A stretch of 47,395 bases of DNA from Acidobacteriota bacterium (GTDB lineage: Bacteria; Acidobacteriota; Terriglobia; Terriglobales; Acidobacteriaceae), in the NCBI GenBank assembly GCA_003225455.1, contig QIAB01000041.1, positions 1 through 47,395 of the forward strand, in the 5' to 3' direction. The position numbers and the translations under genes are program-made. The notes below the pieces were generated by a model. The model saw nothing but the letters and a program-made list of their open reading frames with translations. It searched no databases and was not told the DNA's origin. Below, piece after piece: positions 11,545-39,012 of this stretch (the stretch's first letter is position 1; every line of letters starts with the position of its first letter).

Positions 11545-12663
11545 ATGCTGCTTCACGGAATTTTTCCTCCAATTACCACGCCCTTTTATCCCGATGGCAA
11601 GGTGTATTACAAAAAGCTGGAAGCGAACGTCGAGCGCTACTCGAAGACTCCGGTTGCGGGAATTGTCGTGTTGGGCTCAACCGGCGAGGCCATCATGCTC
11701 TCCGATCAAGAGCGGTGCGATGTGCTGAAAGTGGCGCGCGAAGCAACCGGGCCCAGCAAAGTGCTGGTAGCCGGAACCGGGGTTGAATCGGCAATCGAAA
11801 CACTGAAGCTGACTGAATACGCGGCAGAGCTCGGTTACGACGCCGCCATGGTACGCACGCCGCACTATCACAAGAAACAGATGCAACCGGCGAATATGCT
11901 GGCCTTCTATCGCTTCGTCGCGGACCGGTCGCCGCTCCCGGTCATCATTTACAACATCCCGCAGTGTACAGCCTACGATATTCCCGCGGAGGTCGTGATC
12001 GAGCTGGCGGATCATCCCAATCTCATCGGAATCAAGGAGTCCAGCGGTGACGTGGAGAAAGTACGCAAAATGGTCGAGGGCACTGGACACGTGAGGCGTA
12101 ACGCCACGGTCACAGAAACCTTCAATGCCGTCACGCCCCGCATGCTAAAGGCAAACGCGAGCAACGACGGGGAACTGATCCCGCTAGCAGCCCTGGCGGG
12201 AGGTTCCGATTCTACGCTGGAGGACGGGCGTCCTCGCCCGTCCCGGCCGGCGACGGGCACCCATCAAGCTGCATCTTCGTCGGCAGTTACGGTTATCGAA
12301 AGTTTCAAAACGCGCCAGAAAGAAGTCGGATTTCAAGTTCTAGTTGGCGCCGCTCACAAACTGAAAGACTCCCTCGACGCAGGCGCAGTGGGCGCGATTT
12401 TGGCATTCGCATGTCCAGCGCCGACAGCTTGCTATGAAATCTACACGGCGTGGAAGGAAGGCGACCACGAGCTCGCCGGTATCAAGCAAGAACGGATTGC
12501 GAATGCTTCCCAGAGAGTGGTGGGCGAATTCGGCATCCCAGGTGTGAAGTATGCAATGGATTTCAACGGATATTACGGCGGCTCCGCACGGCTGCCGCTG
12601 CTGCCACCAACGGCTGAGATGAAGACCGCGGTAGAGCATTTAATGACTGGCATTCGCAATTAG
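11545..12663 (+). CDS. Dihydrodipicolinate synthase family aldolase with palindromic insert
   Basis: The product is 372 residues against about 300 for the family. These TIM-barrel enzymes form a Schiff base with a Lys; here Lys164 in GIKESSGD and Tyr136 in IIYNIP, with GSTGE at 44-48. The C-terminal part (FQVLVGAAHKLKDSL to FNGYYGGSARLPLLP) is normal. Between about residues 190 and 265 is a long extra stretch that contains a perfect GC-rich hairpin (12222-12243) read in frame as EDGRPRPSRP. The specific substrate is unknown; a dicarbonyl or keto acid lyase fits as well as lysine synthesis. It diverges from hemQ. Confidence 0.85.
   Translation: MLLHGIFPPITTPFYPDGKVYYKKLEANVERYSKTPVAGIVVLGSTGEAIMLSDQERCDVLKVAREATGPSKVLVAGTGVESAIETLKLTEYAAELGYDAAMVRTPHYHKKQMQPANMLAFYRFVADRSPLPVIIYNIPQCTAYDIPAEVVIELADHPNLIGIKESSGDVEKVRKMVEGTGHVRRNATVTETFNAVTPRMLKANASNDGELIPLAALAGGSDSTLEDGRPRPSRPATGTHQAASSSAVTVIESFKTRQKEVGFQVLVGAAHKLKDSLDAGAVGAILAFACPAPTACYEIYTAWKEGDHELAGIKQERIANASQRVVGEFGIPGVKYAMDFNGYYGGSARLPLLPPTAEMKTAVEHLMTGIRN
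12222..12243. repeat. Palindromic element inside the DHDPS-family gene
   Basis: GGACGGGCG (12222-12230), loop TCCT, CGCCCGTCC (12235-12243): a perfect 9-bp stem with a 4-base loop, the same geometry as the first hairpin of the intergenic double-hairpin elements (stem 9, loop CCCT or TCCT). It is in frame, with no stop codon. Confidence 0.85.
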
Positions 12664-21751: not shown

Positions 21752-24352
21752 ATGACCAAAGACTTCTCCATCATCGGTAAGCGTATCGCCATGGTCGATG
21801 CCGCCGGCAAAACCAGCGGCGCCGGCAAATACACCGACGACCTCTCACTTCCTGGCATGCTTGTCGGAAAAATTCTTCATTCGCCGTATCCTCATGCCCG
21901 CATGAAGCGCATCGATACCACCCGCGCGGAAAAACTCGACGGCGTTGTCGCTGTGGCCACCGGCAAAGATGCGCCCAACACTTACGGCATCCTTCCCGTC
22001 GGCCACGATGAGCGCGCGCTGGCCGTCGATAAAGTTCGCTATGTAGGCGACAACGTCGCTTGTGTCGCTGCGCTCGACGAAGCCACGGCTGACCGAGCGC
22101 TCGAATTGATCGATGTCGAGTACGAGCTTCTGCCTGCTTACTTCGATCCCGAAAAAGCGATGAAAGCGGAAACCGATCTCATCCACGACAACAAACCGCA
22201 CAATATCGAAAAAGACTATCACCACGTTTTCGGCGATCCTGAGAAGGGCTTTGCCGAAGCGGATCATGTTGCCGAAGCCCGTTTCATCGCCAACGAAGTG
22301 ACACACGCCGCCATGGAACCGCATTCGACACTGGCGGCGTTAGAAATTGATTCGCAGACCGGTAAGCCCGGAAGGCTCACCGTCTGGTCGTCCACACAGG
22401 TTCCTTATTACCTCCAGCACAAACTCTCGCTCGTGCTCGAAATGCCGATGTCGCAGATTCGAGTGATCAAGCCGCTCGTCGGCGGAGGATTCGGCGGCAA
22501 GAGCGAAGTGATCCCGCTGGAAATCATTGCCGCGATTGCAGCTCGAAAAACACGTGCGCCGGTAAAGATCACATACACGCGTGAAGAAGTCTTCTGGGCA
22601 CATCGTGGACGCCCGCGAACAATCATTGATTTGAAAACGGGCGTAAAAAACGATGGGCGCATCACTGCCGTAAAAGCGCGGGTGGTGCAAGATGGCGGAG
22701 CTTATTGTTCATATGGCGTAGTGACCATACTTTATTCGGGCGCGCTGCTCGGCGCGCTTTACGACATCCCCAACATTCAGTACGACGGCTATCGCGTGCT
22801 CACCAACAAGCCTGCCTGCGGGGCGATGCGCGGCCACGGCACGGTGAACGTGCGTTTCGCATTCGAGTCGCAACTTGATGAACTCGCGGCCAAGCTGGAG
22901 GTGGATCCAGCCGTGATCCGCCGCCGAAATCTCCTTCAGCCTCCATGCGTGACGATCAACGGCCTGCGCGTTCAGAGTTACGGCTTGCCAGAATGCATTG
23001 ACAGAGTGGTCGAGAGATCAGGCTGGAAGCATCGCAAAGGCAAGCTCACGCGCGGACGAGGACTAGGTATCGCGTGCAGCCATTATGTTAGCGGTGCGGC
23101 AAATTCAATTATTCGTTCTGATATGCCGCACTCCACGGTGAACATCAAAATCGATCGCGATGGTGGAGTGGTTGTTTACACCGGCGCGGCGGAAATCGGG
23201 CAAGGCTCAGATACCATGACGGCGCAGATTGCGGCAGAAGTCCTTGGCTGCTCTCTTTCGCGTGTGAAGGTCGTCGCCGCGGATACCGATCTCACGCCGA
23301 TCGACATCGGCTCCTATTCCAGCCGGGTGACATTCATGGCTGGCAATGCAACTTTGCGCGCGGCGGAAGAAGTGAAGAAACAGATTGCCCTGGCTGCAGC
23401 CAAGAAAATGAACTGCGCTGTGGAAGAGCTCGTCTTTCGCGATGACGGAGTCTTCAACTCGAAAAGCATCAATGTAGGCGCGGGCGTCCCGCCCGTGCAG
23501 GCGCCTGGCGGGGACGAGCGAGGACGCTCGTCGCCACATCGATCTCAGGACCAGGCTTCCGTTTCTGGTCGCGTGGAAGGACAAATCCTTCGCGGCTCAC
23601 TTCAGCAACAACGTAACGAAGAAGGCCCGAAAGATTTTATGACCTTCGAAGAAGCAGTCGTCGCTGCCATCGACTTTCATGGCGCACTGGCTGGCACGGG
23701 GTCCTACGCGCCTCCGCCCGAAGCACGCGGCGGCAAATTCAAGGGCGCCGGAGTAGGGCCGTCCCCCGCATATTCCTACTCCGCGCAAGTCGCCGAAGTC
23801 ACCGTCGATGAAGACACCGGCGAAGTCATCGTGCACAAAGTTTGGGCCGCTCACGATTGTGGACGCGCTCTGAACCCAGTCTCAGTCGAAGGCCAGATCA
23901 TTGGTTCGGTTTGGATGGGAATGGGCCAGGCACTCACCGAAGAGATGGTGTGGAAAGACGGCCTGCTGATGAACCCCGGGTTGCTCGAATATCGCAGTCC
24001 GTCGTCAGTGGAATCACCCGAGGTTGAGCCGATTATCGTCGAGAGCATCGATCCTGAAGGTCCGTTTGGTGCGAAGGAATGCAGTGAGGGATCGCTCGCT
24101 GCAACGATTCCGGCGATTGCGAATGCTATTTATGACGCCGTCGGAATTCGCTTGCGCGAGGCGCCGTTCACGCCGGAGCGCGTGCTGGCGGCGTTGCGTG
24201 CCAAAAAGAATGCCAAGCTGCTCGATCTTACCGAAGGAATTGATCCCACTGCTCCGGAGCGTTTCCGCGAGCATGGCGGCGCGCTTTGGTTCAAGGGTAA
24301 AGGCCCGGAACGGCATGCATCGGATCCAGCGCGTCGCACGGAGCAGGCATGA
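21752..24352 (+). CDS. Mo-hydroxylase large (molybdopterin) subunit (HcrA-like), with in-frame insert
   Basis: The product is 866 residues, roughly 90 longer than the usual 770-780. It binds the Mo cofactor: GGGFGGKSE, RGHGTVNVRFAFES, GAAEIGQGSDTM, and the C-terminal AKECSEGSLAATIPAI where the catalytic Glu is expected (Ser replaces the common Gly before it). Residues about 573-625 (bases 23468-23625) are extra; they contain two GC-rich hairpins and separate SKSI from MTFEEAVVAA, which are near each other in relatives. The C-terminal tail is also extended. The medium-subunit type suggests 4-hydroxybenzoyl-CoA reductase, but hydroxylation of another aromatic is possible. Confidence 0.9.
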   Translation: MTKDFSIIGKRIAMVDAAGKTSGAGKYTDDLSLPGMLVGKILHSPYPHARMKRIDTTRAEKLDGVVAVATGKDAPNTYGILPVGHDERALAVDKVRYVGDNVACVAALDEATADRALELIDVEYELLPAYFDPEKAMKAETDLIHDNKPHNIEKDYHHVFGDPEKGFAEADHVAEARFIANEVTHAAMEPHSTLAALEIDSQTGKPGRLTVWSSTQVPYYLQHKLSLVLEMPMSQIRVIKPLVGGGFGGKSEVIPLEIIAAIAARKTRAPVKITYTREEVFWAHRGRPRTIIDLKTGVKNDGRITAVKARVVQDGGAYCSYGVVTILYSGALLGALYDIPNIQYDGYRVLTNKPACGAMRGHGTVNVRFAFESQLDELAAKLEVDPAVIRRRNLLQPPCVTINGLRVQSYGLPECIDRVVERSGWKHRKGKLTRGRGLGIACSHYVSGAANSIIRSDMPHSTVNIKIDRDGGVVVYTGAAEIGQGSDTMTAQIAAEVLGCSLSRVKVVAADTDLTPIDIGSYSSRVTFMAGNATLRAAEEVKKQIALAAAKKMNCAVEELVFRDDGVFNSKSINVGAGVPPVQAPGGDERGRSSPHRSQDQASVSGRVEGQILRGSLQQQRNEEGPKDFMTFEEAVVAAIDFHGALAGTGSYAPPPEARGGKFKGAGVGPSPAYSYSAQVAEVTVDEDTGEVIVHKVWAAHDCGRALNPVSVEGQIIGSVWMGMGQALTEEMVWKDGLLMNPGLLEYRSPSSVESPEVEPIIVESIDPEGPFGAKECSEGSLAATIPAIANAIYDAVGIRLREAPFTPERVLAALRAKKNAKLLDLTEGIDPTAPERFREHGGALWFKGKGPERHASDPARRTEQA
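23478..23532. repeat. Two palindromes inside the Mo-enzyme large subunit gene
   Basis: GCGCGGGCG (23478-23486), loop TCC, CGCCCGTGC (23490-23498, one G-T pair), then GACGAGCG (23513-23520), loop AGGA, CGCTCGTC (23525-23532). The double-hairpin layout matches the intergenic elements. It is read in frame without stop. Confidence 0.88.
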
Positions 24353-24370
24353 ATTCCACCAGAACAAACG

Positions 24371-24450
24371 TAGGGGCAGGTGTCCTCACCTGTCCGGTCG
24401 AGCGGAGCTCGACATCGCGAAAGCCGCGCACAGCCGAGGGCGGCTGTGCC
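24371..24450. repeat. Inverted pair of hairpin elements (BIME-like)
   Basis: Copy 1: GGGCAGGTG (24374-24382), loop TCCT, CACCTGTCC, then GTCGAGC-GGA-GCTCGAC (24397-24413). Copy 2, in opposite orientation: CACAGCCG (24429-24436), loop AGGG, CGGCTGTG (24441-24448), with flanks TATGTGG that mirror ACGTAGG of copy 1. It separates the large and medium subunit genes. Confidence 0.85.
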
Positions 24451-24476
24451 TATGTGGCCAGTGCGTGTAAATTTCT

Positions 24477-38528: not shown

Positions 38529-39012
38529 ATGCCTCACGACGTGCACCGATTCTATGGCGCCGGTGATCTGCATTTTGTCACCTTCAGTTGCCATCAGCGC
38601 CAGCCGCTTCTCAGCGATGCACGTGGTCGCGACTTATTGCTCGAAATTCTGGAGCGCGTGCGGCGGCGTTATCGGCTGGTTGTGTTGGGTTACGTCGTCA
38701 TGCCCGAGCACCTTCATCTCTTGCTGAGCGAACCGCAGCGGGAGACGCTCTCCACGGTCGTCCAGGCGTTAAAACTGGGTTTCGTGCGAAGCATGGGTAA
38801 CTCGGGGAAAAGTCTTATTCCCAGGTCTCGCAAAGGCGGCAGGACCTGGGGTACCCAGCAGCGCTTCTGGCAATCCCGATTCTGACTTTAATGTTTGGAC
38901 GGAACTCAAGCGGGTCGAGAAACTCCGCTACATGCACCGTAATCCGGTCAAGCGCGGATTGGTGGCCTCGCCCGAGCAGTGGGAATGGAGCAGTTTTCGG
39001 TGGTATCTGTAA
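38529..39012 (+). pseudogene. REP-associated tyrosine transposase (RAYT), frameshifted
   Basis: The first frame (to the TGA at 38883-38885) encodes HFVTFSCHQRQPLL and VMPEHLHLLLSEP, the HxH metal motif of RAYT transposases. After FWQSRF the frame breaks; the next frame continues the family sequence DFNVWTELKRVEKLRYMHRN, PVKRGLV and QWEWSSFRWYL before a stop at 39010-39012. An intact copy would be expected to read through Tyr-Asp here, so loss of two bases explains the break. Between residues 96 and 110 a palindrome (38820-38850) is read as PRSRKGGRTWG, and the C terminus is cut by the right flank. Confidence 0.88.
38820..38850. repeat. REP-like palindrome inside the RAYT gene
   Basis: CCCAGGTC (38820-38827) pairs with GACCTGGG (38843-38850); the loop continues TCGCAAAGGCGG, resembling the half-site of the flanking palindromes. 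It appears in the variable linker of the transposase. Confidence 0.75.

Follow-up and report, generated by a model that had tools for sequence, protein, structure and literature searches.

The host gene and its insert

The window analysed here, a stretch of 47,395 nucleotides of an Acidobacteriota genome (contig QIAB01000041.1), contains a gene for the large (molybdopterin) subunit of an HcrA/XdhA-like enzyme whose coding sequence includes a pair of hairpins (Table 1). The subunit passes the NCBIfam model for 4-hydroxybenzoyl-CoA reductase alpha (1025 bits, cut-off 994.55). The adjacent beta- and gamma-like subunits score below their own NCBIfam cut-offs, so the substrate of the enzyme is uncertain. 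By sequence, the best solved structure for the large subunit is PDB 1rm6, a distant HcrA, in which 9 residues separate two matched parts that lie 62 residues apart in the subunit studied here; the predicted structure of the latter (mean pLDDT 52.4) is too poor to locate the linker. We aligned 121 rows of orthologues, of which 28 were dropped as duplicates, and delimited from this alignment a GC-rich, variable linker with a median length of 30 aa (range 3–68) in the 93 distinct orthologues.

Table 1. Positions in the window of the large-subunit gene, its linker and the REPs
Feature	Position	Strand	Details
Large (molybdopterin) subunit gene	21752..24352	+	866 aa; HcrA/XdhA-like
Hypervariable linker	23456..23575	+	residues 569-608 of the large subunit; from alignment of orthologues
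REP unit 1	23471..23498	+	GTAG head 23474-23477; stem-loop 23478-23498; predicted translation NVGAGVPPVQ
REP unit 2, inverted	23512..23540	-	head GTGG (CCAC on + at 23534-23537); predicted + strand translation GDERGRSSPHR
Block VSGRVEGQILRGSLQQQRNEEGPKDF	23561..23638	+	common to close relatives; outside the insert
REP after gene, first of inverted pair	24367..24395	+	covariance model
REP after gene, second of inverted pair	24428..24456	-	covariance model
REP in DapA/DHDPS-like ORF (11545-12660, 372 aa)	12222..12243	+	residues 226-233, read EDGRPRPS

A sequence-only reading of the locus had described two hairpins that keep the frame and introduce no stop. The reading frame is indeed open from end to end, and both hairpins lie where they had been seen, one as the stem-loop of unit 1 and the other as the inverted unit 2. 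The stem of unit 1 has 9 bp with one mismatch and closes a loop of 3 nt; that of unit 2 has 10 bp, also with one mismatch, and a loop of 4 nt. The units form a head-to-head dimer with their GTRG heads outermost, at 23474 and 23537, and RNA folding joins them into a single long hairpin. The fold of the 173-nt stretch was equalled or beaten by just 1/200 dinucleotide shuffles (z −2.89). A covariance model of 23 REPs scores the two units at 40.5 and 38.7 bits, both units being among its 23 training rows.

The same reading had put the insert at about 52 codons. The insert is genuine, but the element spans 23471–23540, about 23 codons in frame within the large subunit, and the remainder is sequence shared with relatives, since close relatives have the downstream block. 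This block, VSGRVEGQILRGSLQQKRK-EGPK, is alignable in 14/14 close relatives (76–87% identical), clearly kept in 13 of them and diverged in L043; L046 (70% identical) is without it. An insert of 52 codons is thus ruled out, the downstream block being native to close relatives. What varies among relatives is a linker of about 40 residues upstream of the block. A counterpart of the insert without hairpins is not present in all of the close relatives. A likeness in geometry to the intergenic double-hairpin elements of the window had also been suggested and was not confirmed: the insert is a head-to-head pair of single-hairpin units and not the 51-nt unit (D1) that recurs elsewhere in the window.

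REPs and RAYTs in the host genome

When the insert DNA was searched against its own 5.0-Mb genome, 59 matches were found at E ≤ 10, or 58 besides the query itself, several of them representing both strands of one place; further copies had been predicted and are present. The matches are partial and nearly all confined to one unit or the other, and none of those listed (40 of 61 candidates scored) spans both units with the spacer. The covariance model gave at least 154 matches in the genome, a lower bound because 150 of 3686 candidates were scored at the outset, 142 of which make up our REP census after the exclusion of 8 weak rows and 4 outside the matches listed.

There are 11 matches to Pfam Y1_Tnp in the genome, and at five or more of these loci (L065, L067, L069, L070 and L071) GTRG-headed hairpins lie close to the gene. 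One open frame, C100:14235-14705, scores above the NCBIfam REP_Tyr_transpos cut-off (94.6 vs 80 bits) and looks like an intact RAYT (REP-associated tyrosine transposase). Twelve nucleotides from this frame, at C100:14195-14222, is a REP that from GTAG onward matches unit 1 in all but one base, which is in the loop, and a second, inverted and more diverged REP is found at C100:14141-14169, 65 nt from the frame. The frame contains HVH and YI..NP motifs, which we take to be catalytic. Both motifs agree with the class table in PMC6006769. Relatives of this RAYT (E ≤ 1e-15) occur in 11/15 REP-rich genomes, the host included, as compared to 1/15 genomes with no REP-pattern match (Fisher p 0.0005; both sets of 15 were hand-picked); a close match at this threshold is absent in 4 of the 15 REP-rich genomes. 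The window itself has, at 38571-38885, a Y1_Tnp/RAYT-like frame interrupted by one TGA; the GGTCTCGCC-type hairpins that flank this frame differ from the GTAG-type REPs.

Fifty-one of the 142 REPs have an open frame running for at least 60 codons to either side. There are 48 such ORFs, of which 30 (the 31 longest minus one antisense frame) were put to Pfam. Seven of the 30 were not counted, two because the REP lies only upstream of the domain and five because no usable domain was found, leaving 30 REPs in frame within 23 Pfam-supported genes from the 142 REPs examined. The suggestion that a palindromic repeat family enters genes in frame was therefore right, and the phenomenon reaches far beyond the window. 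Named from their Pfam domains, the genes encode HcrA-like, DapA-like, ValS, RecG, MetH, MnmG (two sites), UvrC, UvrA, ABC exporter, CarB, UbiD, phosphoglycerate mutase, aromatic amino acid lyase, SelA, radical-SAM, Dus, AIRS-family, GHMP kinase, lipoyl ligase, S9 peptidase and amidohydrolase proteins and two protein kinases; for UvrA and Dus the domain lies on one side of the REP only. REPs fall between Pfam domains in ValS, UvrC and an ABC exporter, and inside domains in RecG, the aromatic amino acid lyase and phosphoglycerate mutase. The DapA/DHDPS-like ORF, which Pfam matches over two stretches (best 3-180), holds the second intragenic REP of the window, which was found by model positions 8-29 alone and is without a GTRG head. 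In MnmG/GidA (L239, on C114) the two REPs are 393 codons apart and in the same forward frame.

Forward REPs within these genes favour one frame, 16 giving VGTGALARP-like peptides as against 2 in the next frame (15 + 1 assigned automatically, plus two REPs with altered heads assigned by hand; binomial p 0.0013 on the assumption that REPs are independent). The reverse REPs, 12 in all, are distributed over the frames (6 R1, 3 R2, 1 R0 and two unassigned). Among 128 REPs, frame F0 is stop-free in 128, F1 in 126 and F2 in 44.

REPs at the same linker in relatives

At E ≤ 0.01 the covariance model found 27 hits in 25/93 linkers (10,797 nt), none in the remaining 223,215 nt of the 93 orthologue genes, and 31 in 550,826 nt of other DNA; the rows are mutually related, and the linker counts are accordingly non-independent. 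Leaving out L031, which supplied two training rows, a REP is present in 24/92 linkers. A separate hairpin finder was positive in 33/93 linkers. Windows of equal length drawn from other parts of the genes gave a mean of 4.2 (maximum 10, 200 draws), and shuffled linkers one of 3.7 (maximum 12, 100 draws). In 60/93 linkers neither the model nor the hairpin finder detected a REP.

REP-positive rows with genus codes fall under seven codes (g1, g7, g15, g28, g65, g73 and g84), and by row the linker REPs comprise both orientations and two forward frames (F0 15, F1 4, R1 4, R0 2). On a quick tree from which the linker was left out, REP presence requires at least 19 changes, or at least 22 when orientation and frame are distinguished, with one class per row (the two-REP rows L031 and L161 being taken as F0) and with gain and loss indistinguishable by parsimony. 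The median linker length is 29 residues with a model hit and 30 without. The linkers that bear a REP are no longer than the rest, so the length of the linker is not accounted for by REPs alone. This linker varies everywhere, and among the 93 orthologues there is no clean empty site. For the UvrC linker and the loop of the aromatic amino acid lyase, REPs were found in the host and in other genomes and short empty sites elsewhere; the model-scored loci are L277, L278, L288 and L295 for UvrC and L257 for the lyase, and the repeat in the lyase of L260 was read by eye and is unscored by the model.

Copies of the REP pattern number 14–65 in 14 genomes with a linker REP and 0–103, with a median of 4, in 27 without (p 4e-5); in some REP-rich genomes (103 and 53 pattern copies) the model found nothing in the linker. 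The pattern is present in 137/398 genomes of the family, and a reversed-pattern control gave 0–2 per strand in each. The named orthologue records are metagenome-assembled genomes (MAGs), and one orthologue, L148, has stop codons inside the matched span. The sisters L163 and L165 share the start of the REP peptide in the linker; L163 has eight more residues, ESLPRAQPRG replacing GR, and perhaps carries a second insertion into the first. The longest linker, 68 residues with many VGTQEG-like repeats and a REP, belongs to L143, a MAG titled Microbacteriaceae that nests among Acidobacteriota in the tree and is perhaps a mislabelled or mixed bin.

Origin of the insert and comparison with known systems

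The insert is very probably a pair of GTAG-type REPs, non-autonomous elements thought to be mobilised by a RAYT, that entered a permissive linker of the HcrA/XdhA-like subunit in frame. It has the anatomy of REPs and copies throughout the genome, a near-identical REP stands beside a RAYT frame, and the element is in frame with the gene. Many relatives have no recognisable REP at this linker and other genera have different ones. A RAYT may have placed the REPs as single-stranded DNA, and REPs linked to it would insert at many places; those breaking the frame or a folded core would be lost, and within genes in-frame insertions in permissive linkers alone would persist. Linker insertions would survive because REPs are nearly stop-free in most frames and because the linker appears to tolerate changes in sequence and length. 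The REP peptide is presumably produced, and is most probably neutral or close to neutral. Because relatives carry other REPs in the same linker, the locus looks like a natural experiment in mobile DNA becoming protein.

A stronger proposal, which we regard as unlikely, is that in this bacterial family the REP-RAYT system acts as a linker generator: it would supply coding-competent repeats, nearly stop-free and with the preferred forward frame V-G-T-G-A-L-A-R-P, from which selection at the protein level would pick orientation and frame at a few repeatedly invaded linkers.

The seven genus codes could instead trace back to a single old insertion in an ancestor of the family that was passed down and diversified, genomic REPs contributing by gene conversion. 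Close rows do share the side and frame of their REPs (L161/L168, L104/L111 and L035/L088), most forward REPs begin about equally far into the linker, parsimony is blind to gain versus loss, and the linkers in which no REP is recognised are equally long. We nevertheless judge this history improbable, for the four orientation and frame classes are not interconvertible by substitutions, the sister rows L080 and L089 are in different frames (F0 and F1), the tree demands the 22 or more changes noted above, and the several stem types of the linker REPs are also found among REPs of the host genome.

The strong predicted fold, and the position between Pfam domains of several intragenic REPs (ValS, UvrC and the ABC exporter), would suit hairpins maintained for what they do in the mRNA, for instance delaying the ribosome between two domains, with the peptide incidental. 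Against such a role, the model finds no REP in the linker of 68/93 orthologues, other REPs lie within domains (RecG, lyase and phosphoglycerate mutase), and the 16:2 forward frame bias would require a separate cause; we hold it to be very improbable. That palindromes arose by chance, as a GC-rich and variable linker might allow, is rejected by the same-gene and shuffle controls (about 4/93 against the observed 33/93), by the lack of any model hit in the rest of the coding sequence, and by the units being genomic repeats, and its probability is negligible. An assembly artefact deserves thought in MAGs, where repeats can mislead assemblers. Linker REPs occur in records from many separate projects, the units are just about 29 nt long, and the frame is kept in the rows used, though these were sought as open frames; we give an artefact next to no credence. 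For annotators the lesson is that in-frame inserts of this type need not be assembly errors. REPs entering a permissive linker remain the preferred explanation, and 93 orthologues of one linker together with 23 genes of one genome provide a data set on the conversion of mobile DNA into coding sequence within conserved enzymes, which bears on whether the transposase or selection chooses site and frame.

A REPIN is an inverted pair of REPs that moves as one unit. The insert is such an inverted pair and can fold into one long hairpin. Its description as a REPIN unit is unsupported, no match spanning both units and the spacer being among those listed (40 of 61 candidates scored).

The sequence-only reading drew its parallel with the Rickettsia palindromic elements (RPE), palindromic repeats that lie in frame inside many proteins, as the insert does in the present enzyme. 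The likeness is one of behaviour: the phylum differs, the units are GC-rich and GTRG-headed, and a RAYT lies beside a near-identical copy. GTAG-type REPs with a nearby RAYT are known from many bacteria, not from Rickettsia alone. According to PMC3733652, intragenic repeats of R. conorii are the same as RPE-4 and RPE-6; that paper also cites the expression of RPE-1 proteins.

The closest system is that of the GTAG-type REPs, described as having an unpaired GTAG head (GTGG in most O. terrae GTAG-20), a short stem-loop, head-to-head dimers and an association with RAYTs (PMC3733652). The insert has each of these features: an unpaired tetranucleotide at one end of either unit (GTAG in unit 1, GTGG in unit 2), stems and loops within the ranges of 5–13 bp and 2–20 nt, many dispersed copies, the head-to-head arrangement common in dimers, and a RAYT (on C100) accompanied by like REPs. 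Di Nocera, De Gregorio and Rocco (2013) described GTAG and CGTC REPs lying in frame inside genes of several proteobacterial species and of the verrucomicrobium O. terrae; more than half were dimers or groups encoding 20–30 aa, many were in repair genes, recB of two Xanthomonas species had a REP at about the same site, and tolerance in linkers or loops was suggested (PMC3733652). The main text of that paper mentions Acidobacteria/Koribacter twice, on both occasions for transposases that have long inverted repeats at their flanks and not for GTAG REPs (PMC3733652). A 2025 survey places Acidobacteriota among organisms with candidate REPs, and the words "intragenic" and "in-frame" are absent from its main text (PMC12306157). 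In the open-licence literature we found no recognisable report of in-frame REPs in Acidobacteriota, nor of one linker repeatedly invaded across genera. In-frame GTAG REPs are thus already known from other phyla, and the present case is of that kind at an unusual scale; it differs from those published in its phylum, Acidobacteriota, in the recurrence of REPs at a single linker under at least seven genus codes, and in having a measured forward frame bias.
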